Shown here: positions 33,221 through 64,000 of the stretch, piece after piece
Position numbering within the stretch: the stretch's first letter is position 1
Layout: every line of letters starts with the position of its first letter
Assembly (NCBI GenBank): GCA_019448385.1
Contig: JAGTXO010000051.1
Coordinates: 186,001-250,000 of the forward strand
Direction of reading: 5' to 3'
DNA from: Diacronema lutheri
Taxonomy: Eukaryota; Haptophyta; Pavlovophyceae; Pavlovales; Pavlovaceae
DNA length: 64,000 bases
The notes under the pieces: generated by a model
What the model was told of the DNA's origin: nothing
The model's database searches: none
What the model saw: the letters and a program-made list of their open reading frames with translations, nothing else
Made by a program: the position numbers and the translations under genes

Positions 33221-33276
33221 CGTGCGTACGTGCGATGCGGCCGCCGGCGTGATCGACCTGCTGGACGCGGGACCGG

Positions 33277-36200: not shown

Positions 36201-37702
36201 CCTCGGCGTCCGTGGCGCGCGCGGCGGCGGCGTCCGCGGCGCGCGCGGCGGCGGCGGCGCGCGCGGCGGCGCGAAGGAGGAGCGCGCGCAGGGGACGCGC
36301 GCAAAGGCGGGCGCGCCACGCGCCGACTGCGCGCGGCGGACAGACAGCGCAGCGTGCGACTCGCTTGACGAAGATGACGGCGACTTTCGCGGCGTTGACA
36401 GCGCCGCCGCCGCGCCGCGCACGGCAACCGCTGCTCCTGCCGGGCGTTCCGGGCGTTCCGATCCGGGGGGCGCGCGCCAGTCCGGACCGCCCTTGTCGCC
36501 GCCGTGCGCGCGCACGCAGCCGTCAGTCAAAGCGCTGCGCGCCGCGATTGAATACTGGAGCGCGCGCGCGCTGCAGCTTGTCGTTACGGGCGGCGGTGGA
36601 TGCGCCGACGTCGCCGGTCTGCGCGGCGGTTACGGCGGTCCGGGCGGCTGTGTCGGCGGTTACGGCGGTCCGGGCGGCTGTGTCGGCGGTCCGGGCGGCA
36701 GCGGCGGCGGCGGCGGCGGCTCGGCGTACGGCGCGCGCTCTCGCGTGACCGAGGCTGCGGAGGCTGCGCTGCTCGAGGCGTCGGCCGAGCGCGTCTCGCG
36801 CACCGCCGCCCGGTTGAGCGCGCGCCTCACCGCCGTCATCGCGCGCGGCGGCGGCTGCGCGCTCGTCCTCGCCGCAAATTTTGACCACGTGCACGACGCG
36901 CACGTCGATGTGCTCGCCTACGCCAAGACGCACGTGGCGCGCACGGCGGACGGGCCCCTGGCCAGCGACCAGGCGCTTGGCGCGGCCTACGCCGAGCGGC
37001 TCAAGGCCAAGGCCGCCGCGCGCGCCGCGGCCGACGCGGCGCGCGCGGCGGCGAGTGGGCGCGTGCTCCCATCGCCACCGGTCGAGCGCGCCTCGAGCGG
37101 CGGCTTTCGTTGGCCCGCCAAGTGGGCGGCGTTCTGCGCGCGAGGGCTGGTCGTACCACCACGCACGCAGCGTCTGCTCCTTGTCCTTTGCTCGTCCGGC
37201 ATGCAGGCGCAGCTCGGCGAGCTCGAGGTGAAGCTCGCGGCGCCGGCGGTGGTGGCGAGCGCGCCGGCGTGCGTCGGAGGCGTGCACGGAGGCGTGCGCG
37301 GAGGGGGGACTGAAGGCTGCCGCGGCGGGAGAGGCGGCGCGGGGCCGGGCGGGGCCAAAGCGGCGCCATCGCGCGCGCAGCCGCCGCTCGAGTCATTCTT
37401 CGCGCGCGCGCAGCCGCCGCACGCGACGGGTATGGGCAGGTCGGACGCCGGCGCGGCGGGGCCATATGCGCCTGGCGACAGCCGTGCGGACGGCGCCGCG
37501 CACGCGGGAGAGCGCTCGGCGCCGCCCGCGCGCGTCGCCGCGGCTGGCATCTTTGCCGCGATGCGCCTCGGCAGCGCGGACGTGGCGGCGCTCGCCGCGC
37601 TGAGCGCTGCCATCGACCTGCGCGACTCGGCGCAGCAGGCGGCGGCGGACGCCAACTTGGAGGCGGCGCTCGCGGCCAGCATCGCCGATGCCGCCGGCGG
37701 CG

Positions 37703-37742
<40 letters not shown>

Positions 37743-38325
37743 CAGTGGCGGCGGTGGCGGCAGTGACGATGGCGGTGGCGGTGGCAGCGCCGGTGGCGGG
37801 AATTCCGAAATGGACGCTGCGCTCTCCGCCGCGATTGCCGCCAGCTTGGCGCACGCCCGTGAGCGCGGCGGCGCGCGTGGCGGCAATGGCGGCAAAGGGC
37901 CTGACCCGGATGCAGGCCTGCTAGCCACAGGCGCAGAGGATGACGACGACGCCGAGCTGCGCCGAGCGATTGAGCTCAGCCTGCGCGCACGCGCGCCTTG
38001 GCCCGCAAAAGGGCCGACGGCGGGCGGCCAGCCCGTCGTCATTGATTTGGACGGCGAATTGGACGTGCACGATGGAGGCGGCAACTGCGATGGCGGCGCG
38101 GGCGGCAGCGCGGGCGGCGGCGACGAGCGAGATCGCGCGAGCGACGCGGTTGGTTGGAGCGATGGCGTCGCACGATGGCGCAAGCCTGCAGCCGCGCATG
38201 CGGGTCATTCGGACGCGGTGGCCGCGCCCGCTGCCGCCGAGTGCGGCGTGGAGTCGACGCCGCTCAGCGCGCACGAGCTGCGCGAGGCGCGGCTGCGCCA
38301 CTTCCAGTCGCACCGACGCGCGTGA
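33277..38325 (+). CDS. Calpain-type cysteine protease with GRF zinc finger, UIM and SIM motifs
   Basis: Five exons (33277-33914, 34285-34360, 34774-35040, 35149-35594, 35823-38325), all GT-AG with consistent phases, give 1309 residues. Order: SUMO-interacting motif VVEVIDLD (3-10); zf-GRF (131-170: CRCRLPC, NKGRLYFCC, ACGFFAWADG); and the calpain core with QGGVGDCWF (Cys210), GSHAYS (His374) and RIRNPHGVGEW (Asn400), so the triad is complete. A domain III-like segment follows, then a long low-complexity region with an AxxxS-type ubiquitin-interacting motif (DDAELRRAIELSLRA) and weaker repeats (LEAALAASIADA, LSAAIAASLAHA), and a second SIM (PVVIDLDGELD). It is probably a nuclear or chromatin-linked protease acting on SUMO- or ubiquitin-marked proteins; that role is inferred. 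Confidence 0.82.
33915..34284 (+). other. Calpain intron 1 with long poly-C tracts
   Basis: The intron interrupts the codon after GDCWF. It holds several runs of 19-30 C residues (33920 to about 34026) and then a stretch of repeated TTCCGAG-type words. Such C runs can form i-motif or, on the other strand, G-quadruplex structures. Confidence 0.7.
34361..34773 (+). repeat. Calpain intron 2 with inverted minisatellite arms
   Basis: A G-rich array of GGGCGGTTGTGGAT-type units (about 34445-34560) faces a C-rich array of its complement (about 34612-34710) across about 50 bp. The transcript could fold into a long imperfect hairpin inside the intron. Confidence 0.75.
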
Positions 38326-45899: not shown

Positions 45900-46468
45900 G
45901 TCGCATCGCGCCTGAGCCGTGCCGCTCCTTTTCATGTACATAATTGCGGTGCTGACCCCGCTGTCCTGACATAAGCGCCATTAGCGTCGTTAGTATAATT
46001 ACGGTTTCGACGACATTGGTGGCCCCTTGAAGATGCAAGCTTAGTTTTGGCGAGGACGGGCATGTATAGATGGTCAAGCCAAATCCGATCAGGGGCACGA
46101 TCGCGCCCCGAGTGCAGCGCGGGCCGTTCGGAAGGACGTCCTTGTGAGGGAGCTCTTCGCGTTTGGCGAGCGGGGGAGCACGACGCGCAGCGTTGCTGCG
46201 GCGGCGTGCGGGCGGCGAGCAGCGGTCGGGCTGCTCGCGACGAGGCCGGAGCAGACGGCGCCGTGGCCGCCGGCGCAGGTGACGCGCGCCGACGAGCCGT
46301 AGCGAGCGTCCGTGATCCGCACGGCGGTTGGAGCGGGCCGGCTGGTGCGGCGCGCTCGGCCACGGGTGGCGGCGTGCACGGTCGTGCCGCGCGCGGCACG
46401 CGTCGCCAGCCGCGCGCGACCTGGGCAGAGCCCGCAAAGCGTCGACCGCTGCGCGGCTCGGCCGTGCG
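45900..46468 (-). other. Region downstream of the Fanzor stop codon; candidate guide-RNA locus
   Basis: No convincing gene. Fanzor and TnpB guide RNAs are normally transcribed from the 3' end of the nuclease gene and its downstream flank up to the element end, so this is the expected place. The element's end has not been identified; the AT-rich stretch around 45935-46020 (TATAATTACGG) marks a change of composition. Confidence 0.25.
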
Positions 46469-48193
46469 TCAACGCCGGCCGCGCTTCGGCCCGCGCGCGC
46501 TGCCGCCGCCGGCACTGGCGCTGGCAGCTCCGCGGGCGGGGGTGCGGGCGCGAGAGCCGCCGCCGCCACCGCCGCCGCGCCCGCCGCCGTCGTCGCCACC
46601 GCCGTCGCCGCCGCCGCCTCCCCCGCCGTCATCGTCGTCGTCGCCGCCGCCGCCTCCGTCGCCGTCGCCGTCGCCGTCGCCCTCGCCGCCGCCGCCGTCG
46701 CCGCTGCCATCGTCGTCGTCGTCGTCGTCGCCCTCGTCGTCGCCCTCGTCGTCGCCGTCGCACTCGTCGTCGCAGTCGTCGCCCTCGCCGTGCACCATGC
46801 GCTCCTCACGCTCCCACACCTCGCCGCGCGCCCACCAGGCGAGCACGAGGGCAAAGCGCTCAGGCGTCGACGTGGTGTCGCGCCCGGCCGCGTGCGCCGC
46901 CATGTCGTGCACGTCGTAGAAGATGTTGCGCGCGGCGTTGTAGTCGCGGTGCACGGGCTTCTTGCCGCCGTTGCACGCCGGGCAGATGACGAGCGCGTGC
47001 ACCGTGCGCGTGCCGCCCTTTGCCACGGGCAGGCGCGGGTTCTGCGCGAGCTCCGCGCCGCAGCGCTGCAGCCTGCCGCCCTTGGCGAGCCGCGGCATCG
47101 AGCAGTGCATCGACGTGTACGGCTCGGGCACGAAGACGGCCGCGACGCCGCGCCGCCGCAGCTCGCGCAGCAGCCCCACCTGGAAGGCGGGCGGCGCGCC
47201 CTTGGGCTGCGCGCCCTTGTGGTCGCGCAGCCACTTGCCCACGCACACGAGCAGCCGGTCGCGCGTCACGCCGTCGACACAGTGCGCCGCGATGAGCGCC
47301 TCGGCGACGCGCGCCGCGTTGGACCGCCCGCCGCTGTCGCGCCGCCAGCGCTCCTTCCGGCGCGCCGGCGCGTCGTACACGTGCTCGGCGGCGCGCTCGC
47401 GCACCCGCGCGCTCTCGCGGTGGAAGGCGTGGAACTCGCCCTCGCCGAGCACCTTGGCGCTGTGCGCCTCGCCAAGCCGCGCCTCGTCCGCCTCCACGCT
47501 GAACTCCTCGCCGCGCCCGTCCTTGCGCACGCGCCGCCGCGCCGCGTTGGTCTTGGCCGTCTCGCGCGCAAAGCCCGCGGCGCGCGCGCGCGCGCGCTGC
47601 GTGAACTGCCGCCAGACGGCCGCCCGCCCGACGTGCGCAGAGTAGGTGGTGATGTTGCCCATGTTCGGGTCGGCCGCGACGACGACCGCCGCCTCGACGT
47701 CGATCGCCCGCCGCAGCTCGGAGCCGAGCGCGACGGCGATGCGCCCGTCCGGCCGGCGCCAGCGGTGCAGGACGCCCGAGCCGCCGGCCGGCGCCTGCGC
47801 CTTCGGCACGAGGACGGTCCCGACGGCGTGCACGGCGACGCCATCTGTCACCACCGACTTGACGGGCTGCCGGCCCGGGAGCGGCACGCGCGGCAGCGGC
47901 GCGAGGCCAACCCACGAGCGCCGCGCGTGCCACGGCAGATCGGCCGGCGGCCGCTCGCGCCCGGCGTAGTCGAAGACGCGGTTGGAGATGTCGAAGCGCG
48001 TCGCAAAGACCGCGTACCTGACGCGCACGTCCGACATCGGCGGGGTGTTGCCGTTTGTGCCTGTCCACTTGATCGGCTCGCCATCGTGGTCGCGCAGGTC
48101 CAGCGCCTTGAGCCGCGCGCGCAGCTCCTTGCGCTCGTCATCCGAAAGCGTCACCCAGATGGCGCTCGCGGCGAGGCGCACGTTGCGCGGCAC
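46469..48193 (-). CDS. Fanzor (TnpB-like RuvC nuclease) domain, last exon of the giant gene
   Basis: 574 residues. RuvC-I is VVVAADPNMGNITTYSAH (Asp175 of the exon), RuvC-II is VFVPEPYTSMHC (Glu357), and RuvC-III is HRDYNAARNI (Asp417). Between the last two lies a zinc ribbon (Cys364, Cys378, then CPAC at 404-407). This set and order define TnpB and its eukaryotic relatives, the Fanzors, which are RNA-guided DNA nucleases carried by mobile elements. A 120-residue Asp/Gly-rich tail ends in PKRGRR, a possible nuclear signal. The exon starts after CGCAG at 48194 and joins the preceding exon in phase 0 (intron 48194-48321, GT-AG, 128 nt). The frame upstream of 48193 is open but Arg/Pro-rich and is judged to be intron and antisense noise. 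The acidic residues are intact and the gene looks whole. Confidence 0.82.
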   Translation of the reverse strand: MPRNVRLAASAIWVTLSDDERKELRARLKALDLRDHDGEPIKWTGTNGNTPPMSDVRVRYAVFATRFDISNRVFDYAGRERPPADLPWHARRSWVGLAPLPRVPLPGRQPVKSVVTDGVAVHAVGTVLVPKAQAPAGGSGVLHRWRRPDGRIAVALGSELRRAIDVEAAVVVAADPNMGNITTYSAHVGRAAVWRQFTQRARARAAGFARETAKTNAARRRVRKDGRGEEFSVEADEARLGEAHSAKVLGEGEFHAFHRESARVRERAAEHVYDAPARRKERWRRDSGGRSNAARVAEALIAAHCVDGVTRDRLLVCVGKWLRDHKGAQPKGAPPAFQVGLLRELRRRGVAAVFVPEPYTSMHCSMPRLAKGGRLQRCGAELAQNPRLPVAKGGTRTVHALVICPACNGGKKPVHRDYNAARNIFYDVHDMAAHAAGRDTTSTPERFALVLAWWARGEVWEREERMVHGEGDDCDDECDGDDEGDDEGDDDDDDDGSGDGGGGEGDGDGDGDGGGGGDDDDDGGGGGGGDGGGDDGGGRGGGGGGGSRARTPARGAASASAGGGSARGPKRGRR

Positions 48194-48321
48194 CTGCGCG
48201 CAGCGCGCGGCGCGCGAGCGCGCGGGCGCGTGACCAACCTGGCCGCGGGGCGGCGCGCACGGCGGCGGCGCGCGCGCTTGGGCGCTCGGCGGCGGCAGCG
48301 GCAGCCACGCCTCGCGCGCAC

Positions 48322-51300
48322 ATTGTGCGTGCGCAGCGGCGCCACATTGTACCGCGGCGGCCGTCCGGTCAGCTGCGTGTGGATGTGCGCGAGCCGGCAG
48401 AGCAGCGCCTGCCCCTCGGCCACGTGCTGCAGGGTGCGGATCTGCACGAGGAAGTAGCGCGTCGTGTGCCGGTCGTAGTTCCACCTTTTCGTGGGCGTGC
48501 ACTTGTAGTCGATCTTGTGGAGGACCATGTCGGGCAGGTGGCGGTCGAGCGCGGCGGGGCAGCCGACGCGCGCGCCCTCCACGTCGCCGCGCAGCAGCCG
48601 CTCGCACAGCTCGCGCACGCGCGCGTTTCGCTGCATCTCGGGCAGCGCGACGAGCGCCTCGTCGCGCTCGACTGCCGCGCGGACGACGTCGCGGAGCAGC
48701 CCGTTCACGACGCGCGATGGGTGCATCAGGCACGCGGTGGACACCTGCGTCGCCTCCGCCTCGAGGATCTCCGTGAGGCCCACCGCGCAGACGGGCTGGA
48801 CGCCCTCGGCCATCTCGCCGACGGCGCGCGCCGTCGCCGCCTTGGTCTGCGCGGCGGCTTGCTCGGCGGGCTTGCCTCGCGGCGCTGCACCGTACGTGCT
48901 CTCGTCCTTGTGCCAGCCGATGGCCGAGAAGATCGCACGGACGGATCCCTTGTCCATCGTGGTCGACGTGTGCACGCTGGTCGACGGGCCGCCCGACGCC
49001 GCGCCGACGGCCTGCGCGCTCGCCACCGCAGCCTCGTCGCGCACCACCTTGTTGATGACGCGGTACGCCTGTGTCGTGAGCCTGTGCACGGCCGCCGCGA
49101 TGCGCCGCAGCTCCTTCCGCGCACCGGGCTGCGCCGTCACCGCCTGCGGCCCCGCGTTGAGCGTCGAGCGCTTGACCACGAAGCCCGGGAGCACGCTGCC
49201 GCGCGTGCGCGCCGTCGCGCCGCCGGCGGCGCGCGCGCTCGGCGCAGCGGGCTCGTCCACGCGCGCGCGCTCGACGCCGCGCGCGCGGGGAACGCTCGGC
49301 GCGCGCGCGCCCGCGGCGTCGCGCGCGCTCGCGGCGGCACCCGCCGCGGCGCGCTTGCCCGCGGCGCCCGACTCGCCGTGCGCGCGAAGCGGCGCCGACG
49401 CCAATGCCGACGCCGCGCCCGCGCCGCCGCTGCCGCTGCCCGATCCGCCCGCGCGCCGCTTCTGCTCGTCGCGCGTCTTGCGGAACTGGGCGACGAGGTC
49501 GCTGCTCACGTTGGCCTCAGGCTCCCACGTGTCGGCGCTCTCGTCGTAGCCCCGCCACCTGATCCGGAACTGGAACGTCACCTTCTTGCCCGCCTTGCGG
49601 CGCTCGTCGACGACCGCCTCGACCTCGTACGTGCGCGCCTCCTCGTCGACGCTCGCGCCCGCCGCGCTCGCGCCCGTGTCCGGCCACCCAGCGACCGTGC
49701 CGCCCAGCCTCTCGGCGGCCGCGCGCAGCTGCCGCTCGCGCTGGGCGGCCGCGGCGCCTCGCGCGACCAGCGCGGGCAGCATGCCCGCGCCGCCCGCGAG
49801 GCCGTGCGCGCCGACGCTGGCGGTCATCAGCGCGTCGAGGCACGCGAACGTTGCGAGCGCACGCGCGCCATCGTCGCCGCCGCGCGGCTGCGAGCGCACG
49901 ACGGGCGATGGCCGCGGCTCCCCCTCGGCCGCGAGCAGCGGCCAGATCGCACTGGCCAGCGCGACGGCATGCGCGCCGACCGCGACGGCCACGTCCGCGT
50001 CGAGCGGCGCAAAGTCGTAGCGCACGAGCGCGGCCGGGCGCGAGTCGTCCGTCGGCCGGTCGGCGACGAGCAGCCCGACCGGGCGCGGCGGCTCGCCGGA
50101 CGGCGCGGCGACGGGCACGCAGAGGAGCACGACGAGCAGGCGCGGCGTGCCGCCGAGCAGCGCGCGCGCGGCATCCGCCCCGTCGGCTCCGCCGCGCGCG
50201 GCCGCGGCGAGCAGCTCGGCCGCGCGCGTCGGGCCCAGCGCCGTGCGCGCGTCCTTGCGCGCGCGTGCGCGGGCCGTGTACGCGGCGCAGGCGTCGTCGA
50301 GCACCGCCGCGCTGGGCGCGGTGCCAGTCGTCGCCCACGCGCGCAGCGCGTCGCGCACCCGCGTGACGATCGCCTGGTCGACCGCCGCCTCGCCGGCAGC
50401 GTGCGCCGGCGCGCACGCCGGCGGTGCGGCGGCAGGCGCGAGCGCGGGCGCGCCGTCGGCGCCGTCAACGCCGACGGCGCCGTCGGCGCGCCGCCACGCG
50501 AGCTTCGCCTCGATCTGCTGCCGGACGGCGTGGCAGTGCCGGTCGATGCCGCGCGCGTCGTCGAGCGCGGCCAGCGCGTCCTCAGCGGCGGGACGGCCGC
50601 TCGCGTCCGCGACGGCCTGCAGGCAGAGCAGCGCGGCCGCACGCGCGTTGCACGCGCTCTGCGGCTCGGGCGCGAGCGCGAGCTCGAGCTCGAGCGGCGA
50701 CGCGCCTCGCGCCGCGGCGATCGCGTCCATCAGCACGTCCAACCGCTGCACCAGCGCCCTGTGCGCGTCGCGCGGCGCGCCCGTCGACGGCGCGCGCGAG
50801 CGCGTCGCCACGAGCCCGAGCGCGCGCGCCGGCGCGCCCGCCGGCGTGTGCAGCACGAGCAGCGCCGCGCCCGCCAAGCTCGCGTTGCGCGTGACGAGCG
50901 CGAAGATGCGCGTCGCCTCGTGCGCGCCCACCGACGCCCAGATCGCAGCGCGATCGGCGTCCGTCTGCGCGTCGCACAGGTCGCGCACGTCGTCCGGCGC
51001 GAGCAGCGCGCCGCCGCCGGCGGAGCGCGCGACGATCGCCCGCGCCTCCGCCACGAAGACGGCCTGCGGCAGGTCGGCGTGGCGCGCGTCGACGATGGCG
51101 CGCGTCGCGTGCACGCCGAGCTCCACGCCGCGGTAGAAGGCGCGCGCGTTGGCCGCGCGCGCGTGCGCCGGCCGTCCGTCCGCGTTGCGCCTCGCGCGCG
51201 CCTGCTTGCTCGTGCGCGCGAGGCCGTCGCGTGGCGGTGGCGGCAGCGTGGCGAGGAAGCGCGCGGCGGGCGGCGGCGCGCGCACGCCGCGCTGCCGCCG

Positions 51301-54300
51301 TGCGATGGCCGCGAGCCGCCGGCCCGCCGCGCTGCCGCCCGCGCCGACGTGCTGCCGGCGGCCGAGCGCCGCCGGTGGCGGCGGCGGCGGCGGCGCGGCG
51401 GCGGGCGGCGGCGCGACGGCGGGCGGCGGCGCGGCGGCGGGCGGCGGCGCGGCGGTGGGCGGCGGCGCGGCGGCGGGCGGCGGCGCGGCGGCGGGCGGCA
51501 GCGGCGGCGGCGCGGCGGCGACGGCAGCACCAGTCGGCTTGTCCGCCCACGCACCCGAGACTCTGTCCCAGACCTTGCCCCATGGCGCGCGCCCACGCGG
51601 CCGCGCGAACTGCCCCGGCTCGAGCGCCTGGCCGCGCTTGGCGGCGGCGGCGGCGGCAGGGGGCGGGCGGCCGGCGCGCCAGTCGAAGACAGGTGCAACC
51701 GTGGCGGCAGGCGCCGAGTGCCGCGCGTCGGTCACAGAGCGCGTGGTGCGCGCGGCGACCGTGGCACGCCTGGCGGGCGGGCGGTGAGCAGCGCCCGCCG
51801 GCGCGCCGGCGGGCGCGGCCGCCTCGAGCCCGGCGGAGGCGCCGCGCTTGCGCTTGCGCGTGCCGCCGCGCGTGCGCCTGCGCGCGCGCCCGCCGCGCGC
51901 CCGTTCGGCCTGCGCGTCGCCAGCCGCGTCGCCGGCCGCGTCGCCGCGCCGCACGTAAACGACCGCGAACGCCTCCTCGCCGGTCCCGTCGACGCCGCCG
52001 CGCGCGCGGCGCAGGACCGACCGCCACTGCAGCCGCCGCGCGCGGCCGGGCTCGCACGCAAACCAGCGCCCACCGCGCCTGACGACGGCCACAAAGTCGT
52101 CGTCGCGCCGCCCGCGCCGGCGCGTGCGCAGCAGCACGCACTGCACGTCGAGCCAGCCCTCGTGCCAGTCGGCCGTGCTGGGGGCGACGCGAATCGACTG
52201 CGGGAGCTCGACGCCAAAGCCGGCGAGGCGCACGATGTGCGCGACGATGACGCTCGAAATGGCGGGGGCGCTCGACGGGTCGCCCGCTGCAGCGAGCACC
52301 GCCCCGCCCCAGTGCTCACGCGTGACGCAATCCGCGTCCTCGACGTGCACGTGCGCCACGCTCGCGCCGAGCTGGTGCAGCAACGCGCAGATGTCGGCGT
52401 CGACCGTCCTCTCCTCCTCGGCCGCCTCGGCCGTGCCGCGGGCGGCGGCGTCGCCTGCCGGCTGCCCGAGGTACGCGATCGCCCGCTCGACGGCCGCGCG
52501 CTCCGCACGCGCTGCGCTGTCGATCGCCGCATTGCCGACGGGCGCGCGCAGCGCCGCGATCGCGTCTTGCAACGCCGTCGCGTCGCCCGTCGCCGCCGCC
52601 GCCGTCACCGCCGCCGCGCTCGCGGTGCCGTGCGCGACGGCGTGCAGCGCGGCGGCGCGCGCGGCGGGGATGCGCCCGTCCAGCGCGAGCACGAGCGGCG
52701 GCCCGGCCGGCGTCTGCTGCCGCCGGTGCCGCCGGCTCGCAGCCGGGTGGTCGGCGCGCGCGCGCTCGAGCCGCGCGCGCCGCTCGACGACGCGCGCCCA
52801 GAAGGCCTGCACCCTCGGCTGCGCGAATGCAAGCCAGCCGGCGCCGCGCGTCACGACGTGCACGACGATCCGGTCCTCGTGCCTGAGGTACTGCACGTAG
52901 AGCGCTTTGCTCACGCCGAGGACGTGCATGCCGAGCTGCAGCTGATCGCGGTGCGGCTGCGGCGGCCCGTCCTCGTGCGCCGTGGCGCCCGCCTTGGTGA
53001 GCGTCTTCACCTCGACGAGGACCTGCTCGTTGTTTTCGGGGAGGATGGCGAGCCCGTCCGGCGAGAAGGCGAACGGCGCGCTCTTGTCGTGCGGGTCCGC
53101 ACGCACCATCGGCAGGTTGCACACGACGGTGATGCCGTACGCGGCCGCCAGCTTGCGCAGCGCGACGGCCTCGCCGAGGATGCCCGCGGTCGTCGCCTTG
53201 GTCCGCACCTCGCGCCGCCGCCGGTGCACGTACTCGTCGGTGAGCGTCTCGTGCGCGACGCCGGCGTTGTCGTTCACGACGTCGCCAACCTTGCTGCCCG
53301 TGACCTCCTCCCATCGCTCGTCGTGCCAGCGCGGGCTGCGCTGCGCGGGCGCGCCCGCGCCGACGGCGTCGAGCACGCGGCGCAGCGCTGTGCCGTCGGG
53401 CGCAGCAGGCACGCGCGCGCGGTCCTGGGCCTCGCGAGCGTCGAGGACGCGGCCCGTAGTGGAATCTTGGGGTAGGTCGAGCTTGCTCGCCTCGCCGTAG
53501 CGGCTCTCCAGCTGGCGCGGTGCGTCGGCAGGGCCGCCGTCCGTGCGCGCACCCGACGCGCCCGCCAGTGCACGCGGCGCAGCGTCCGAGGCGCCCGCCG
53601 CGCCCGCGCCGCCGCCAATCGCGCCAGCGCACGCGCGCGCCGCGACCTGCGGACGGCCAGCCGCAGGGACCTCGTCCGCTCGGCCGGCCGCTGCGTCGGC
53701 CGTCCGCTTGGCCACCTCGCGCACGTCTCCGAGCGCGAGCGTGGCTGGCGCCGTCGAGCTCCCGTGGTCTTTGTCCCAAAATTTGAGCAGCCCGCCAAGG
53801 AAGGGCGTGCCCGTCGGGCGGTCCTCGGGCACCTCCGCCAGGATCGCGTCGACGCGCAGCGCGGCCGCCACATCGCAGAACGCGCGCGCGGCGCGCGCCA
53901 TCCGCTCGGCGCGCGCGCCGCCGTCGTCCGCCGCGCGGCGGATGGCGTGGCTCACGTGCGCGACGCGGAGCGAGACGACGGCGTGCGCCGGCGCGTCGGC
54001 GCCCGTGCCGAGCGTGTGCCGCCGGATGGCCAGCTGCCCATCGCCCATGCGCGGCGGCAGCGACGCGCACGCCGCGACGGTCGTCGTGCCGGCCGCGCTG
54101 TCGCACAGCCAGCTCGCCTCGCCGCCGCCCGCAAACTCAAAGGTCGCGAAGCCCTCGCGGCCGAAAAGCGCGACGAAGTGGTCGAGCACCGCCTTGTTGA
54201 TCGCGCGCGCCGCCGGCCGCGTCGATGCGCCGCGGGCAGCGCCACCCGCCGCGCCGCGCGCATCGCTGCACGTCGCAGGGCAGGTGCAGCCGGACGCGCG

Positions 54301-57042
54301 CACGCCGTCCGACCGCGTCCGCGGCAGCTCGAGCTCGCGCACCTTGGGGCAGAACCAGAGCGGGTTGGACGCCTCGAGGCACAGCACGACGAGCCGCCCG
54401 TCCGTGCCGGCCAGCGCGCGCGCGTCGCGCAGCAGCTCGACGGCGAGCTCGGACGTCGCCGCGTGCACCGCCGGCTCGCCCGTCGCGCGGTCGGGCGGGA
54501 AGAGGCCGCCGCCGACGAGCGGGCTGGGGCAGCGGCCGAGCATCACGAGCAGCGGCGGCGGCGGCGTCTGCGGCGCCTGCTGCCCGACCGCAGCCGCCGT
54601 CAGCCCGGCCAGGTCGGAGCTCGTGCGGAGGGCCTTGAGCGCGACGCGCGAGCCGGTGCCCGCCTGCTCGGAAAACGTGGCGAGCATGGCGCACGTGCTC
54701 GCCCTCGCGCCGCACTGCCAGCTGACGCGCGCGAGGAGGCCTTCCAGCGTGTCGTTTTCGCGCGGCCGCGTGACCGCGTCGAGCGCCGCCGGGCCGAGCT
54801 GGAGGCTGCCGGGCGTGACGCACAGCACCGCCTCGTGGTAGGCGCGCAGCAGCTCCCTCGGCAGCTGCTCGGCGGGCGTCGCCGCCTGCCCGCCCACCCA
54901 CCGTGCACCGTGGCCGCCGTCGCCCGCGCCCGCGAGCCGGACCGCCGGCCCGCCCGTGATCGCCGAGGTCGGTGGCGTGCCGAGCGCGTCGACGAGCGCG
55001 CGCACGGGCGCGACACGCCTGCGCGCAGCGTCCGCGCCGACGGCGAGCGCGGCGATCTGAGCGTCCTCCCATGCGCGCTCCCTCGCGTCGTCCCGCGCGG
55101 CCGCCGGCGCGGCGCCCGGCCGCGCGCCGTGCGGCACCGCGCACGCCGCCGCGACGACCTCCGCGCGCGCGCCGGCGGCGTCGGGCGCGTGCAGCTGCGC
55201 GATCGCGCCAAAGAGCGCGGCGGCCGAGCGGTAGCGGCCGTGCGCCGCGACGAGCGCGTAGAGCACGCGCAGCGCGGCCACGCCCGCCTGGTCGGGCGCG
55301 TCGCCAGCGATTTGCTCGACCTCCCACGTGCGCGTGGGCGGCGGGCTGCCGTCAGCCGGGTCCGGACGCAGCGCCCACGCGCGCTCGACGATCGCGTTGA
55401 ACACGCCGTGCGCGGCGCCCTCGTCAAACTCGGCGGCGCCCGCCGCGTGCGCGCACCACCCGTGCACGCGCGACGTGGGCGCGTCCACGGCGCGCTGCAC
55501 GACGAGCACCGCCGGCCGGTCGACGCAGCCGAGGCTCACCGCCGCGTGCTTGCCCTCGAGCAGCGCCGCCGCCGCAGCCTCGACCAAGGCGTCATCAGGC
55601 GCGTCGCCGACGACGACGGCACAGCCGTCGCCGTACTCGGCCTGCATCGCGGCGACGCACGACGCGACAAAGTCGCCGCCCGCGGCCGCCGCGTGTCGCG
55701 CCGCCAGCATCCGGCGCGCGATGGCAAGCCAGACGTACTCGGCCGGCGCGCGCGCGGCGCGCGCGCGAGGCGCGCCGGCCGCGCCGCGTGCGCCAGCGCG
55801 TGCGCCTCCAGCGGCCGCAACGGCCGAGGCGGCTGGAGCGGCGGTGAGCGTGCGCCGCGCGCGCTTCGCCGGCCGCGTGATGGGCGATGCACCCGCCGTC
55901 GCACCGCCCGCAGCAGCCGGTGCGGCCGCCACAGCGCCCGCCGCGACGCCACTCGTCACGACGCCCGTGGCGGGCGGCGCGGCGTCGGACGCGGCCGCCT
56001 CGACGGGCGTCGCGCAACTACCGCCAGCGGTCGCGGACGCGCCCGGCGACGCGTCGGCGAGGAGGTGGCGCAGCACGCCGCGCGCGAGCGCGACTCGCAC
56101 GGCGAGCGTCAGCGCGCGCAGGCGGTCGGAAGGCGAGGCGTCGCGCTCGGCGTCGGCGGACGTGGCGGCAGCAGGCGGGGCGGCGGGCGGCGCGGCGGCG
56201 GACCGGGCGGCCGCCGGCGCAACCTCGTCGGCCTTGGCCAGCCAGACGAGCCCGGCGACTGCGAGCACGACGCTGTACGCGCCGACATCGTCACCCGCAA
56301 CGCGCGCCAGCCGGGCGTGGGCGTCGGCCTCGGACACGGCGACGCGGAAGAGCACGTCGTCGCGGGCAGCTTGCTCGGCAAACTGACGCAGCTGCTTGGC
56401 CATCGTCACGCCGGCGACGGACGCCTCGCCCGCCTCTGCCTCGACCTGCTCGTCCTGGCCGATGGCGGACGCGCCGGCCTCGGCGCCACCGTCGAGTGTC
56501 CGGCGGCGCTCGAGGGCAAAGCCACGCACACAGACGCTCTGGAGGCCGCCGAGCGCGCCCGCCTTCTCGTGCAGCGCGCACGACAGCTCGACCACCGAGT
56601 CCACGCGCCTCGCGGCGGCGCCCCCCCGCTCGCCGCGCGTGGCCGCGCGCACGACGAACACCGTGAATTGCGCGCGCTTCGCCGCGCGCGCCGACGCGCA
56701 CGCGTGCTTCAGGAGCCGGCAAAGCGCGGGCCTTTGCGCCGCTGCGCCCCGCGTGCACAGCAGCAGTTGGCCGCGCTCGTCGCCCAGCTCCTGCTCGACG
56801 GCGGCCTCGAGCGCGTCGTCCGTCAAATCGCCGTGCTCCGTCGAGGCGAGCGCGCGCGCAGCCGCGAGCGCCAGCTCGCCTGCGCCCGCGCGCCGCCGGC
56901 GGCGCGCACCGGCGGGCGCGTGCGGCGCCGACGCGTGTGACGACGCCGCCGCGTCCGCGCGCGCACACGCGGCGCGCAACGCCTCACGCGCCGAGGCGGC
57001 CGCGCGCGCCCTGGGCGCGAGCTTCAAGAACGTGCGCGCGGC

Positions 57043-57115
<73 letters not shown>

Positions 57116-60100
57116 TCGCCCGCGTCGCCGGCCGGCGGCGGCGGTGGCGGCGGTGGCGGCGCGGCCACGGCGGCGGCAGCAGCGGCGGCGGCGGCGGTGG
57201 CGGCGGCGGCGGCGCCCAGCGCGGGCGGCGGCGGCGTGGCGGCGGCGGTGGCGGCGGCGGTGACGCCAGCGGCGGCCTTGGCGCCGCGCGTCTGCGGCGG
57301 CGTTTCGGCGCGATCGGGGCTGCCCCCGCCGCGCACCGCGCTCGTGACCGCGCAGACGCCGCCCGGCGCACGATCGCTGGCCGCGCCGGTCAGCGCGACG
57401 CGGAGGCGCTCGCCGACAGCGTACATGTCCGCCACGCTGAACGTGCGCGGCGCGGACGAGCAGCCCGCCGCGGCGAGCGCGTCGTTGAGCGCGCCCACTA
57501 TCGCGAGGCCGCACGTCGCGCCACGCTGCGCCGCCTCGTTGAGCAGCAGCGCGCGGCGCACGCGCGAAATGTCGAGACCCGCCGCGTGCAGCGTGGCAGT
57601 TATCGCCTTGGCGAGCATGAGCGCCTGCCTGCAGGGCGACGCGAGCGTGTCGACGAGCACCGCGTCGTAGCGATGCTCGCCCGCGCGCGCGACGCGCACA
57701 AGGCGCAACGCGGTGAAATGGCCGGAGGCGAGCTGCGCGCCGTCGTCACCGCCCGCGCCGCCGCGCTCGTCCGACGGGCTCCACACGCCGATGACAGCCT
57801 GCGTTGTCGCCTCGCTGCGCAGGCGGTGCAGCAGCGCGGCGCGCTCGGCGTCGTCCTGAAACACCGCGGGTTGCGCGGCGAGCGGCACGTGGCAGACATG
57901 CCCGCCGCCGGCCTGCCCGTGCACGCGCAGCACGACCTCGCAGCACGCGTCGACGGTTGAGGCGAGCATGTCGCCGCTGGCGATGCGCTCCACCTCTGCC
58001 TGCGGGAGGCCGGCGCTCGCGGCGGCGGCGGCCAGCCGGCGCGCAGCCGCGTCGCCCGCCCACGCAAGCAGCGCCGAGTTGGCGGGTTGGAGGGGAAGCT
58101 CAAGGGCGGCTGGTTCGGTGGCGGTAGCCTCGTTGGCAACGGGCACGTTGGCGGTGCGCGCGTTGGCGGCGGGCGCGGCGGCGATGGCTGGTGGGGCGGA
58201 AGACGCGCCCGCGGCGGCGGGCGCGGACGCGGCAGCGGCAGCGGCTAGTGGGGCGGGGAAAACGCCGTCGGTGGCGGGCGCGGAGGCGAATGCAGGAGCA
58301 ACTAGTGGGGCGGGAAAATCGGCGGCAGGCGCGAAGGCGGATGCAGCAGCGGCTAGTGCGGCGGGGAAAACACCGTCGGCGGCAGGCGCGAAGGCGGATG
58401 CAGGAGCGCCCAGCGGGGCGCAGAAAACACCGTCGGCGGCAGGCGCGAAGGCGACAGCAGCAGCGGCCAGTGGAGCGGAGGCGCAGGGCCACGCGCGCGC
58501 CAGCCGTGCAAGCCCAAGCCGCGCGCGAGCGACGCACGCGCCGATGGCCGAGGCGGCGGCGCAGGCCACGACGTGGCCTGGCACCGGTGTGGCCAGCCGC
58601 TCGCGGGTGTGCACGTCGAGCCGCGCCCCACGCCAAGAGCGGCGGCGCGCTGAACGGAGGCGCGCGACCCCGATCGATCCGCCCGCGCACGCGCGCGCCG
58701 GCTCAGTGTGGCCAACGCGCGCCGCTATGCAAGGCGCGCGCGCGATAACGGCGGCTGTCGGCCGTGGCGTGCGCGTGGCGGCGCCGCGGCGACGGGCGCG
58801 GCACACGAGCCGCTCGGGCGCGCCGCCGCCGCGCGGCACGATGTCGAGCAGCACGGTCACGCCGCGCGCGCGCGCGACCGCCGTGCACGCGAGCCGCACG
58901 GGCAGCGGCGGCCCGTCCGGGCGCGCGAGCGCCGCCACCTCGGCGTCGGTGAGGCTGTGCAGCTCGCGGCGCGCGCGCGCGAACGCGGCGATGTCCGCGC
59001 GCAGCTCCGCGTCCGTGCCGAGCGCGGCACGCGCGTGCACGGGGAGCGACGCGCGCAGCGCGTGGAGCACGCCGCCGCGCGCGCCGCGCGGCGCCGGCGC
59101 GCGCTCGCGCTCAGCGCGCGCGGCGCGCGTGAGCTCGCGCACCGCGCGCGCGAGATTGCGCCGCGCGGCCGCGACGGGAGGGCTAGGTGCGCGCGCGCGC
59201 CGGTTGTAGCGCGGCCGCGCCGAGTCGAGGGGCGGCGGACGCGGTGCGTACGCCGCGGCGCGGCCCGCGCGCCAAAAGGCCGGCGGCGGGCGCAGCTCCG
59301 TCGCGTCGACCGCGGCCGCGAGCGCGCCGAGCGCGGCGTCGCTGTCGCCCGCCGCGTCGGCCGCGTCGACGAGCACGAAGAGCGCGCCGAGCGCGCGCGA
59401 CGCGGCCGCCTGCGCGGCGGTGGGGCGGGCGCAGGCAGCGACGCATGCGGCCGCCATGCCGCGCGCCGCGGCGAACGCCGGTGACGTGACGGCCGCGCCG
59501 ATGGCAACGGCGGCGGCGGCGACGGTGGAGGCGGCAGCGCCGGCGATGGAGGTGGCAGCGGCGGCGGCGCTTGCCATCGCGCGGCGCGCGAGACGCGAGG
59601 CGCCACCGACCGCCGCCGCCGCAGCGCGCGCTGCGCGCGCGCCGGTGGCGCGCATCGTCGCCGCGCCAGGCGCCGCCGCGCCGACGCCGCCGGCGCCCGC
59701 GCCGTCGCCGCTCTCGGCCGTGCAGGGCTCCGATGGCGAACCCGGCGTGCGCTGGCGCGTGATGCGCGCGCCGAGGCGCGCGCTCCGCGCCGCGCGGCCG
59801 GCGACGTCGAGGAAGCGCCGTGCGCGCGCCGCGCGCAGGCCACGCGCGCGCGGCGGCGCACCGACAGGCGCCGAGCGCCGCGGCGCGCACGCCGGCGCGT
59901 CGCTGTCGGGTTGCGCAGCGCGCGCGCGGGAACTCGGCGCGGCGTGTGCGGGCGGCGGGCGCGCGCCCGCGCGGCGCAGAGGCGCGAGGCGCCGGCCGCA
60001 GACGAGGCGTGTGCGCAACCAGGACGGCGAGGGCCGCAGGGCGCCGTCGACGTCGCGCATCGGCGGGCCGCGAGCCCGCCGCGCAGCCGTGCGGCGCGCG

Positions 60101-61563
60101 CGAGGCGCTCGGCGGCGCGCGCGCCGCACGGCGCGCGCGGCGGCGCGCACGCCAGCGACGGCTGCGGCCACGCCGCGCGCCAACACGGCCGCGGCGTGCG
60201 CCATCGCACCGAGCACGGCGCGTGGCGCGCCGAGCAAGCGCAGCAAGCGCGACGCCGTCGCGCGCGCCGGCGCACCGTGTGCAGGGGCCTCGCCAGCGCC
60301 AGCACCGACGCCGCCATCGCCGCAGCCGCAGGTGGCGTCGCCGCCGCCGCAGGCGTCGCGACGGACGCCGCCGCCGCCGAAACAACCGCCGCACACGTCG
60401 CCGCCGACGTTGCCACCCCAGCCGCCGTTGCGTGCGCAGGTGGCTGCGGCGCGTGCGTGCGGGAGGCGTGCCGTGCGGCGCGCATCACACGGGCTGCGCG
60501 ACGCGAGCGACGCCGCCGGGGGCCCCGCTGCGCCAGGCGCGCCGTGCGCGCCAGCCTCGCCGGCCTCGCCGGCGCGCGGTCGCGCGCTCGCCTCGACGTG
60601 GCCGCCTCCGCCGCCATCGCCGCCGTCGAACCGGGCGGCGGAGGGCTGCCGCTCGAACCGCTCGTCGGCGTCGGCCGCCACCGCCGCCTCGCGCTCCGCC
60701 GCCGCGGCGGCCGCACGGCGCGCGTGGCGGAGCGCGCGGCCGCCGTCCGCTGCGCGGCGTGGCGGCGCGGGCGCGGGCTTCGGCGCGCGCGGCCCCTCGG
60801 CGCGCTCGCGGAGCACGGCGAGCGGCGTGCCCGTGGCGACGCTCGTGCAGACGCGCCGCAAGGCGGCGCTTACGCACGCGTGGACGACGCGCGCCGTCCG
60901 CTTGTCGGCGGCGCGCGCGGCGCGGCGCGCGGCCTTGGCGGCGGCCTTTTTGGCGCGCCTCTGCTCCGCCTGCTCCGACAGCGCGCGCGCCTGGCGCTCG
61001 GCTGCGAGCGCGTCCTCGGGCGAAACGGTCGGCCTCGGCGGCCGCGCGCGCGCGCTGCGACGCTGCGCGCTGCGGCGGTCGGACGGCGGCTGCCGCGGCG
61101 GCGAGGACGGCGAGCGCGAGCTCGGCGTGGGCGACCAATCGCCGCTGACGGTTGCGAGCGGCGCAAACGGGTTGTCGTCCCCGCGACCCGCGGCGTGCGA
61201 CAGTGCACGCGGCGTCGGGCGCCGGCCGACCGCTGGCGGGCCCCACTCGGACGGCGGCTCCGAGGGCGAGCGCGCCGTCGGCGCCGCGCGTTGCGCGGCC
61301 GGCGGCGCCTCCCGGTCCAGCGCCGCCTGCTCTCTCGCCGCGGCCTGCTCGTCACCCTCCGGCACGCCACGCGGCGCGAGCACCGCGGTGGCGCAGCGCG
61401 TCGCGTTGAGCAACGCCGCCTCCATCTGCCGCACGCTGGCCTTGGCGCACGCCACACCCTGTCTCGCCCGGCGCAGCGCCTCGTGCGCGCGGCGCACTTC
61501 CGCGTCGGCATCTTCGCGCATGCCAAAGTGCGCCTGTTGCAGCCGCAGGTCCGCAGGGCGCCC
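48322..61563 (-). CDS. Central 13.2-kb exon: C48-like protease, YqaJ exonuclease, chromodomain, Fanzor N-part
   Basis: A single exon of 4414 codons without a stop. In protein order: coiled-coil and low-complexity parts (61560-58700); five repeats of about 18 residues of the FAPAADGVFPAPLAA type (58470-58240); an Ulp1/C48-like protease (57960-57420) with SGHFTAL (His), AVLVDTL (Asp) and AAQRGATCGLA (Gln and Cys); a poly-Ala and poly-Pro linker (57300-57035); further modules that resemble C48 folds without the nucleophile; a YqaJ-type exonuclease (53345-52760) with GEAVALRKL, FSPDGLA, VLVEVKT and RDQLQLGMH; a chromodomain (49640-49455) with YEVEAVVDER, IRWRGYDES and TWEPEANV; and a basic segment reaching the donor at 48321. 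Codon bias stays uniform throughout, which argues for one functional gene. Confidence 0.75.
49455..49640 (-). other. Chromodomain within the giant gene
   Basis: About 60 residues with the chromodomain pattern: YEVEAVVDERR, FQFRIRWRGYDESADTWEPEANV, then a helix (DLVAQFRKTRDEQ). Aromatic cage positions (Tyr, Trp, and Trp or Glu) are kept. Chromodomains bind methylated histone H3; in transposon proteins they steer insertion into heterochromatin. Confidence 0.85.
52760..53345 (-). other. YqaJ-like exonuclease domain within the giant gene
   Basis: PRWHDERWEEVTGSKVGDV, GILGEAVALRKLA, FSPDGLAILP, EQVLVEVKTLTKAG and HRDQLQLGMHVLG reproduce the YqaJ/lambda-exonuclease layout: active Glu, Asp, Glu-x-Lys and the downstream Gln. 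Such nucleases resect DNA ends in phage and virus recombination. Confidence 0.8.
57035..57120 (-). repeat. Poly-alanine-coding GCC repeat
   Basis: An almost pure GGC array on the + strand that codes for a run of more than 20 Ala on the minus strand, next to a Pro run. It links the active C48-like module to the next part of the protein. Confidence 0.85.
57420..57960 (-). other. Ulp1/C48-like cysteine protease module
   Basis: His in SGHFTALRLVR, Asp in YDAVLVDTLAS, and Gln plus Cys in AAQRGATCGLAIVGALN occur in the spacing of Ulp1-type proteases. Such proteases cleave SUMO or viral and transposon polyproteins. The module could release the nuclease parts of the giant protein; that is an inference. 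Confidence 0.6.
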
Positions 61564-61696
61564 CTGCGCGCGAGGGGCACGGGCGCGGCGGCGCGCAGGT
61601 GACGGAGCTGGCGCGCCGTTCTGCGCTGCGCGCACGCCAATCGACGGGCGCGCGCGCGGCGGGGCGCGCGCGCGCGCGCGCGCGCGCGCTGCCTAC

Positions 61697-64000
61697 CCAG
61701 CCGCCGGCCGGCTCGCGCGAGCGCGCCAGCTGCTCCGCCGCCTCGGCGTCGAGCACGCGCTGCTGCGCCTCCTCCTCGCCCAGTGCAGCGAGGTGCAGCC
61801 GGCGGGCTGCCTTGCGGCAGTTGCCCTCCGCCTTGCCCACGGCCTTGCGCGCCGCGTCGACGGGGTCGTCGTTGGCTCTGGCGCGCCTGCGCTTGCCCTT
61901 GTCGGCGGGCGGCGGCTCGGCGCGCTGCAGCGTGCCGAGCGCGTCGTCGGCTCCGCGCGCGGCCGCCCGCGGGCGGCGGGCCCCAAAAAGCGCACCGGTC
62001 GCCGTGCGCGCCGCGCAAGCAACGACCAGCGCTGACATGCCGGCGAAGACCGCACCGCCCAGCGCCACGGTTGCCACGATGCGCAGCGTCCCGTGCGCAG
62101 GCCGCGCTGCCTCCGCCGCTTTGGCGGCCTCGCGCGCGCGCGCATCGGCGGCTCTCATCTCGTGCAGCAGCCCGGCCGCGCCGCTCGCGCCGTCGCGGCC
62201 GCGCGCGAGCTCGCACAGCACCGCCGCCGCGCGCCGCGTGGGCTCGCGCGCGAGCAGCTGCGCGCCGCCGTCGGGGCGCAGCTTCTCAACGAACTCGACA
62301 AACGTCGCGTCGCGCCAGAGGGACATGCGGAAGGCCCTGTGCACCGCCCCCTCGTGCTCGCGCATCCGCCGTGCCGCCCGCCTGCCGTCGCGCGCGTGCG
62401 CGTGCGCGGCCGCGTCGACTCCCGCGACGCCGCGCTGCGCGTCGCGCGCGGCCGACGACGGCGCCGCCGCGCTGCCCGCCAAGGGCGCCGCAGCGGCGAC
62501 GCGCGCGTGCGGAGCGACGGGATCGCCGGCGGCCGGCGGCTCGGCGCGCTGCGGCGTGCCGTTTGCTCCGCGCGCGGCCGTCCCGGGGGAGATGGCCGCG
62601 ATGGCGCCGCCAGCCGCGCCGCGCGCCAGCCACGCGCATAGGCTGCCGACGAGCTCGCCGAGACCCCCGACGGTCGCCGCGGCGGCGAGTGCGCCGGGCT
62701 TGCCGGCCGACAGCGGCTCGCGAGCGTCGTCGTCGCAGCCGCCGGCACCCGTCTTGGCGAGTGCGTCGCGCTCGCCCTCGACGCCCGCCACGACCGCCGC
62801 CCCTCCGTCGTCCGCCGCGCCGGCCGCGCGCGCGGCCGGGCGCAGAGGAGGCGTGCCGGTGCAGCCGTCGCCGCTCGTCTTCGCCGTTTCCTCCACTTTG
62901 GTCACTTCGTCGCCACCTGCGCCATCTCCGACGCCGGGGCCCTTGGTCACGCTTGCCGCCATGCGCGCCGTGCCCGCCGGCCAGCCCGCCGACTGCTCGA
63001 GCGCGGCGGCGAGCGGCGCGACGCGCGTCGACTCGGGCGCGCTCTCGTCATCGGGCTCGAGCGCGTTGTGCAGGCGCGCGAGCGCGCGCTCGACGGCCGC
63101 GGCGCCACTGCCGGGGGCGCGGCTCGCCGCGCGCACCGCGCGCCGCCAGGCCGGCGCGAACATGAGCGCCGGCTCGAGCGCCGCGAGCGCGCGCGCCTCG
63201 CGCGCGTCGCTCGCGCCGAGGCGCGGCGGCACGCGCGCGGCTCCGCGCGGCGCGGTGCCTCGGAAGCGTGGGCTCAGCGTGTAGGCGAGGTGCTGCGGCA
63301 CGCCGCGCGCCTCCGCGCGCGCGCGTCCGTCCTCGACCTCGCGCCGCGCCTTCGCGATCGCCGGCGTGGCGCGCGCGAGCCAGTCGGGGTCGGCGGGCAG
63401 GTGGATCACGACGAGAATCGGCGCCCAGTCCAGCCGCGGGTTCTTGTGACGGTCGGGCACGACCCACACGAGCAGCACCGTGCCCTCCGCGCCGCACGCC
63501 GCCTCGTAGATCCTGGGCTGCGAGCGCCAATCGGGCCTGACGCGCAGCGCCCGCGCGTGGTCGATGGCGGCGGCGCGGTCGCCATTGAAGTGAACCGTCG
63601 TCACCTCGCCGATGACGGACCGGCCGGACCGCCAGCAGAACACCGCGTCCGCCGACCCGCCGGCGATGGCCGCGAGCGATTCGGGCGCGGCGAGCCGCGG
63701 CAAGCCCTCGAAGGCGGCAAAGTCCTCGTGCGCATTGTACACGCCGCCCCAGCCGTCGTGCGCGTACGCGCGCGCGGCCGCTCGTACCGCGCGCGGCTGG
63801 TTCTCCACGCCCGACGTCATGTGCCATGTCGTCCCCGCGAAGCCGGGCTCGCCCAGCTCGGCCCGCACGACGGCACCGTACCCCGCGCCCTGCGTCGGGG
63901 CGGCGAGGTGGTGCATGCCCGCGCCGGTCACGCCCTCCGTGCGCTGCCGCGTGACGATCGTGCCCGTCGCGTGCGCGAAAAGCGTGTCGACCACGGCGGG
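61697..64000 (-). CDS. Giant gene, first visible exon (partial, 5' end beyond the window)
   Basis: At least 766 codons are open to the right edge; the in-frame GTG at 63994 is not a credible start, so the gene continues outside. Residues around DAVFCWRSGRSVIGEVTTVHF, with a later LLVWVVPD strand, are reminiscent of PD-(D/E)xK nuclease folds, but this is weak. A hydrophobic helix (TLRIVATVALGGAVFAGMSALVVAC, about 62090-62020) suggests a membrane segment, followed by a charged coiled coil (AARKAVGKAEGNCRKAARRL). The exon ends at TGG followed by GTAGGC, phase 0, and joins 61563 across a 133-nt intron ending in GCGCAG. Confidence 0.6.

Follow-up and report, generated by a model that had tools for sequence, protein, structure and literature searches.

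A predicted giant gene with a Fanzor-like C-terminus in a 31-kb mobile element of Diacronema lutheri

The stretch of Diacronema lutheri DNA analysed in this study (the window, 64,000 nucleotides, C10:186001-250000) carries part of a mobile element of 31 kb. Its largest gene is a giant spliced one, and the predicted protein of 6,213 amino acids has a YqaJ/RecE-like exonuclease domain, a chromodomain and a Fanzor-like nuclease region at its C-terminus. Judged from the sequence, both the giant gene and the mobility of the element are well supported. The genome searched comprised 43.49 Mb in 103 contigs, and contigs are given as C-numbers.

The giant gene and its predicted domains

Three long frames were found on the minus strand of the window, the first of which continues past its end (Table 1). 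The two gaps between them, of 133 and 128 nt, start with GT and end with AG, and both junctions are in phase 0. The start of the gene was placed using 9.6 kb of extra sequence up to the end of contig C10. From the ATG at 65371 (extended window coordinates), the joined frame runs through 6,213 codons without an internal stop. The original prediction had described one spliced frame with matching phases and a polyprotein of more than 5,700 residues; the spliced frame was confirmed, and it is longer than claimed.

The middle frame has 4,513 open codons. For comparison, 200 sequences were generated by a first-order Markov model with matching length and dinucleotide composition (79% GC); their longest open reading frame had a mean of 878 codons and a maximum of 1,873 codons, and the length of the middle frame is far beyond what its composition leads one to expect. 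The G+C content at codon positions 1, 2 and 3 was 0.79/0.64/0.90 in exon 1, 0.82/0.66/0.91 in exon 2 and 0.78/0.57/0.95 in exon 3. When the joined frame was scanned in 61 windows, G+C content peaked at position 3 in 58 of them, and a coding signature is thereby demonstrated.

In the 18.9-kb gene, the C10 and C71 copies show just one indel, of 2 bp, which lies within the second gap. The same gap aligns in a decayed relative on C63, where its GT and CAG ends are kept. The NCBI gene model KFE25_006464, made from another copy, has the identical junction between exon 2 and exon 3, joining RTHNV to PRNVRL. The D. lutheri genome annotation used BRAKER2 with RNA sequencing input, according to the available portion of the genome paper (PMC8379373). 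The model starts within exon 2 at an internal methionine and continues into a neighbouring SAM-domain gene, and therefore it supports the junction and not the whole gene. The element copy at C69:1672449-1675608, whose 3′ part is merged with the SAM-domain gene in this model, may reflect exon capture or an annotation merge.

The internal start of the NCBI model would also suit several separate genes within one long open region instead of a single protein. We regard this as improbable, because no stop lies between the domains, the codon signature extends along the joined frame and the junctions are in phase 0.

Table 1. Features of the giant gene and of the mobile element (positions are those of the window)
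Feature	Position	Strand	Details
Mobile element, part in window	46064..64000	-	Further part on C10 past the window; contig ends inside the element
Element right end	46064..46468	-	405 bp after the stop codon; expected place of a Fanzor guide RNA
Exon 3	46469..48193	-	Residues 5640-6213, stop codon; encodes RuvC and zinc part of Fanzor-like region
Fanzor-like region	46781..49203	-	Residues 5346-6110, split by intron 2; limits by eye
PF07282 match	46922-47161	-	4e-6
Intron 2	48194..48321	-	128 nt, GT-AG, phase 0; copy comparison and NCBI model
Exon 2	48322..61563	-	Residues 1226-5639; open frame 48151-61692
Chromodomain	49477..49629	-	Residues 5204-5254; PF00385
YqaJ/RecE-like exonuclease domain	52777..53352	-	Residues 3963-4154; phrog_434
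H-D-Q-C stretch	57439..57951	-	Residues 2430-2600; C48 (Ulp1-like) cysteine-protease resemblance by eye only
Intron 1	61564..61696	-	133 nt, GT-AG, phase 0; read directly from sequence
Exon 1	61697..64000 in window, ATG at 65371	-	Residues 1-1225 of 6213; open frame 61355-65389

Fanzors are nucleases carried by transposons, in which their role is unclear. The Pfam profile PF07282, which covers the TNB zinc and RuvC-III part, matched the C-terminus of the giant protein with 27.3 bits (cut-off 26.3, E 4e-6). The published Fanzor motif is D-X(125-275)-[TS][TS]XX-C4-X(5-50)-RD in the available text of PMC3627910. The giant protein follows it with D5814, a gap of 184 residues, T5999-S6000, the four cysteines C6003, C6017, C6043 and C6046, a gap of 8 residues and R6055-D6056; G5958 is a further motif residue. 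Fanzors also have a repositioned glutamate (Ealt) six residues ahead of the zinc motif (PMC10711439, as far as its available text goes), and E5996 stands six residues ahead of the first zinc cysteine, C6003. The RuvC-I aspartate, the repositioned glutamate, the C4 motif and the RD are common to the giant protein and the Fanzor nucleases described in the available parts of PMC10711439 and PMC10432273. The profile match and these residues uphold the predicted Fanzor identity.

The guided_TnpB profile gave 12.1 bits, far below its cut-off of 100. All that PADLOC and NCBIfam returned was one line for Csx1 and some weak ones for TnpB/Cas12f. A phmmer search of PDB with the Fanzor frame gave one meaningless line (E 0.51), and the single-sequence structure model of the Fanzor exon was unusable (mean predicted local distance difference test score, pLDDT, 36.4).

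The exonuclease domain matched the RecE-like family phrog_434 with 6e-15. The Pfam profile PF09588 (YqaJ) gave 15 bits in the window copy (E 0.031), below the cut-off of 22, and 28.2 bits in the C71 copy, above it, and the exonuclease expected from the original prediction was thus recovered. TIGR03033 matched with 3e-5, which is below its cut-off. The domain carries SPDG, EVK and QLQLGM, which we take to be YqaJ/RecE-like exonuclease motifs. The giant protein resembles the RecE/lambda-type YqaJ exonucleases in its phrog_434 and TIGR03033 matches, and differs from them in lying within a eukaryotic mobile element and in being fused to a Fanzor. A tblastn search of phage sequences with the domain gave 22 records, 20 of which were listed at 26.8-28.0% identity. 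Among the matches listed, the annotated features were mostly tail-fibre or structural proteins, with two named 'putative endonuclease', and therefore a close phage source of the domain is not shown.

The chromodomain matched PF00385 with 5.6e-12 (45.8 bits, cut-off 25.1), and its best PDB match was the CDY-like chromodomain 2dnt (5.9e-9). Profile searches returned a match for each of the RuvC, YqaJ and chromodomain parts, and the predicted combination was not refuted by them. The predicted Ulp1-like protease, which might free the parts of the polyprotein, fared differently. Two stretches with H-D-C patterns were seen by eye, neither had a Pfam or PDB match, and they gave no useful alignment to each other. 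For these reasons, self-cleavage is a guess, and neither the protease nor its action was supported. The bulk of the 6,213-residue protein has no domain assigned in the profile scans, and single-sequence structure prediction failed to yield a usable model of residues 458-780 (mean pLDDT 38.5). One protein may combine RNA-guided cutting, resection and heterochromatin targeting.

The 31-kb element and its copies

The complete element, with both ends, was found at C71:151838-182854 and is 31,017 bp long, including one boundary base. The original prediction did not include this element, its many copies or its helicase and ubiquitin-protease-like sequences. A 27.5-kb stretch of C71 matches the window copy at 99.55-99.56% identity and extends beyond the end of contig C10. 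The right terminus is GACCATCTATAC, which reads GTATAGATGG on the plus strand at 46064, where homology between copies ends sharply. The left terminus, CTATATACGG, has an equally sharp limit. The two ends are fixed and differ from each other. With at most 3 mismatches, the 33-bp pattern of the right end was found at 218 genome sites and the pattern of the left end at 201, and both reversed-pattern controls gave 0 sites.

The copies are very similar to each other. At the right end, the outermost 1,001 bp had a rounded identity of 100% in all 40 copies scored from 857 candidates, the window copy being one of them, and about 3.1 kb of the left part was 99-100% identical in 40 of 40 (C71 included; 293 candidates). 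The Fanzor exon was 98-100% identical over 464 amino acids in all 91 copies scored from 419 candidates, and 90 of the 91, the window copy among them, had no internal stop in it. The exon 2 frame had at least 4,400 codons in 52 among the 95 copies listed and fewer than 2,000 in 14. The identity of 98-100% among scored copies indicates that the spread of the element was recent, and the element looks freshly active.

The ends were paired using 100 of the 218 right ends and 51 left ends on C1-C50, which came from 100 of the 201. The lengths of the 31 pairs fell into classes of 30.9-31.1 kb (13 pairs), 29.1-29.2 kb (6), 26.0-26.5 kb (3) and 21.4-22.2 kb (8), with one pair at 12.6 kb. These classes indicate that shortened versions multiplied too. 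The 31 paired copies among those listed make up 1.9% of the genome; by extrapolation, 200 copies at the mean paired length would make up about 12.5%. The available portion of the D. lutheri genome paper names only the long terminal repeat and long interspersed nuclear element classes among annotated repeats (PMC8379373).

Contigs C1 and C12 start at base 1 exactly with the right terminus of the element, and C10 ends inside a copy. Contigs bounded in this way suggest that the assembly is probably interrupted by the element. An 870-bp palindrome, 91-92% matched, lies in the left part at about positions 2000-2870 of the C71 element, and it is present in the 40 scored copies. A separate repeat family of 1,114 bp adjoins the left end (C71:150560-151673) and occurs in at least 39 further places, some of them partial, at 98-100% identity. 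The two terminal DNA folds were near those of shuffled sequences (z -1.84 and -0.67).

The flanks of the copies showed a preference on the left side. In 41 distinct left flanks, the six bases ahead of ACGG were C in 35, T in 38, A in 41, T in 41, A in 41 and T in 40, and three further left flanks read CCTATAT. In the right flanks, the first base showed only a weak preference for G (27/55). The two ends of the element share a TATA-like sequence, with CTATAT at one end and CTATAC at the other, and the left hexamer is nearly fixed. Several flanks, together with window positions 45940-46063, contain the whole or part of a common motif near AAGCGYCGTTAGTATA, which may belong to another repeat family or be a preferred target.

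Target duplications were mostly absent. No repeat longer than 4 bp was found in 24 of 25 flank pairs, and the remaining pair had a 13-bp repeat, the pairing being doubtful. One further pair, on C9, had no repeat by eye. When 42 left flanks and 55 right flanks were all compared with each other, the junctions gave one 36-bp match between different copies, which lies inside repeated sequence, and the same 13-bp repeat, and otherwise nothing longer than 9 bp. A 5′-truncated copy at C4:1155042 consists of the right end alone, about 165 bp long, and is flanked by a duplication of 43 bp with 95% identity; this insertion looks one-ended. Three other copies whose right-end matches are short had no adjacent duplication.

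Relation to Helitrons and possible mode of spread

Upstream of the giant gene, a PIF1 helicase was matched in two frames (3.7e-14 and 1.8e-24), together with Pif1_2B (6.2e-13) and a ubiquitin carboxyl-terminal hydrolase (4.3e-8). The start of the helicase part has 92% DNA identity over 128 bp to a decayed RepHel on C63, which holds the sole match to Helitron_like_N (86 bits) that the genome search returned. The element and the Helitron RepHel thus have the PIF1 helicase and 2B domain in common, whereas the element has no recognised Rep, another N-terminus and a helicase in several frames. Judged from its helicase sequence, the element is related to Helitrons, and we do not file it as a Helitron. 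C63 also has decayed stretches like the chromodomain-Fanzor part, at 81-89% identity in pieces longer than 150 bp. The decayed RepHel and these stretches lie on the same contig, within the regions C63:31500-41499 and C63:23500-31499, and may be what is left of an ancestor that had a Rep.

The explanation that we favour, and consider fairly probable, is a Helitron-derived giant transposon in which the Fanzor and the exonuclease help the element to spread or persist. The element would descend from, or exploit, a Helitron-type (rolling-circle) system, since its helicase is close to the RepHel relic, most sampled copies have no duplication and no other transposase was recognised. We infer a rolling-circle-like spread, with help that may come in trans or from some part of the protein whose function was not recognised. 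A guide RNA at the right end, near the stop codon, is established in TnpB and Fanzor loci. By analogy, the Fanzor of the giant protein would be guided by an RNA from the right end, which adjoins the Fanzor exon, and would cut sites without the element. The YqaJ exonuclease would then resect the break, so that the element could be copied in or retained through recombination, and the chromodomain may tether the protein to marked chromatin.

A bolder version, for which we see only a slim chance, takes the 6,213-residue protein as the mobility machine itself. It would make an RNA-guided break, resect it in a RecE-like way and copy the element in by recombination, with the chromodomain picking the chromatin. 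If true, this would be a self-contained, RNA-guided and recombination-based eukaryotic transposon without a classical transposase.

Several results weigh against the favoured explanation or its parts. No Pfam profile of an HUH Rep, a DDE transposase or a tyrosine or serine recombinase was found when the left 11.7 kb was read in all six frames, and the giant frames matched none of these either. The helicase of the C71 copy shifts frame several times, and C10 has no indel there, so the shifts are common to both copies; introns or decay could explain the broken frame. The element ends (TATATACGG and CATCTATAC) do not show the 5′-TC and CTRR-3′ of Helitron1. In a search for the asymmetric terminal inverted repeats (8-15 bp) of Helitron2, the longest was 7 bp, and 347 of 500 shuffles did equally well. 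As for hairpins, the 5′ end has a palindrome of 9+9 bp at 48-65 (equalled in 4 of 300 shuffles), and the longest perfect 3′ stem is 6 bp (70 of 300). A single left flank was joined to two different right flanks, on C39 and C45. The assembly may therefore mis-join copies, and the absence of duplications is uncertain.

The nuclease part also departs from the described Fanzors. Its RuvC-I reads DPN, and the DPG that is near exclusive to Fanzors in the available text of PMC10711439 was not found there; its first zinc pair is C-X13-C, and it is fused to other domains. Because of the DPN, we name this part of the protein Fanzor-like. Rfam gave no match within 46000-64000, a result that says little on an undescribed guide RNA.

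Selection on the giant frame gave no support either. The 52 coding changes between the C10 and C71 copies comprised 15 synonymous and 37 other changes, with 12.6 synonymous changes expected without selection, a pattern that suits copies which have drifted since they inserted. In the comparison with the C63 relic, the NG86 method gave a nonsynonymous rate (dN) of 0.104 and a synonymous rate (dS) of 0.116, and the shifted frames did not differ from this (0.099/0.117 and 0.103/0.116). The YN00 method gave dN/dS values of 0.090/0.226 in the true frame and 0.101/0.114 and 0.154/0.071 in the shifted frames. Purifying selection was thus not demonstrated in either comparison.

The missing Rep would also be explained if the element were an ordinary non-autonomous Helitron-like element, whose ends are moved in trans by a RepHel and whose giant gene is passive captured cargo. 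The helicase broken across frames in two copies, the RepHel relic with a related helicase in the same genome and the multiplication of internally shortened classes near 21.6 kb are all consistent with this, and we regard it as a serious though less probable alternative. However, the sole Helitron_like_N match from the genome search is a decayed one, and the ends match neither Helitron1 nor the inverted repeats of Helitron2. The long exon 2 frames and the unbroken Fanzor exons also argue against passive cargo, but youth alone could explain them.

Tyrosine- or serine-recombinase elements can show shared TATA-like ends and a fixed hexamer. The TATA-like sequence at both ends and the nearly fixed left hexamer would therefore suit a different type of mobility, unrelated to Helitrons, with an unrecognised transposase inside the protein (e.g., residues 1-2400 or 3460-3860). 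Domains are assigned to only a minor part of the protein, which leaves room for such an enzyme. But the helicase is Helitron-related, and the unusable model of residues 458-780 offers nothing positive in its favour, so that we consider this explanation unlikely.

An endogenous virus or virus-like element, instead of a transposon, might also carry a helicase, YqaJ, proteases and a Fanzor. YqaJ and ubiquitin proteases are found in large DNA viruses. Fanzors occur in large DNA viruses as well, according to the available text of PMC3627910. However, neither the left 11.7 kb nor the giant frames gave a capsid, packaging ATPase or polymerase profile match above its cut-off. The viral contigs held no relative of the Fanzor exon (no pattern match) or of the YqaJ domain (6 chance matches) at the sensitivity used, and a viral origin is very improbable. 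A Phage_cement_2 line in the Pfam scan of the left 11.7 kb (E 0.38, 11.6 bits, cut-off 24) was taken as chance.

Comparison with known elements and other sequences in the window

Transposons that carry Fanzors are already known, those of the Helitron2 type included. The closest comparison is with the Fanzor1 Helitron2 elements CRe-1, CRe-2 and CRe-3 of Chlamydomonas, as described in the available text of PMC3627910. They have the same Fanzor motif in a spliced gene, and the elements have no recognised transposase of their own. Their intact copies are also without target duplication, and a 5′-truncated copy has one. In that text, CRe-1, CRe-2 and CRe-3 are described with a Fanzor1 protein and no fusion, whereas the Fanzor described here is the tail of a 6,213-amino-acid protein with an exonuclease and a chromodomain. 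The present element is 31 kb long with helicase and ubiquitin-protease sequences, and the Helitron2 inverted repeats were not found in it. The CRe duplications are 7-19 bp (PMC3627910), and the one clear duplication here is 43 bp.

In size and enzyme cargo, the element is also like Starships and Mavericks, which are large elements of tens of kilobases with enzyme cargo. It differs from them in that no Pfam profile of a tyrosine recombinase, integrase, polymerase or capsid was found.

Protein searches scored only candidates that share exact short words with the query. With the Fanzor part, 2 proteins were found among 8,000 scored candidates, one an unnamed protein at 99% identity and the other a D. 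lutheri gene model. The YqaJ piece gave 0 of 5,236 at E 0.01, and the exon 2 protein 0 of 1,346. No protein that unites a Fanzor with a YqaJ exonuclease and a chromodomain was found in the searches made of open-licence papers or in these word-sharing searches. Here, one Fanzor is hard-wired to a predicted end-resecting exonuclease and chromatin reader. The family that carries this fusion is young and abundant, is for the most part unbroken and lives in a cultivated alga, so that the service a Fanzor does for its transposon becomes directly testable.

Long repeats with coiled-coil-like frames form an array at window positions 1-26606 and share about 92-99% identity over lengths of 1.2-4.6 kb. 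No link of the array to the element was seen, and DUF7310 matched below its cut-off in 2 of the scanned frames. A calpain-type cysteine protease is encoded in two frames at 33253-38325 on the plus strand, with a GRF zinc ribbon upstream.

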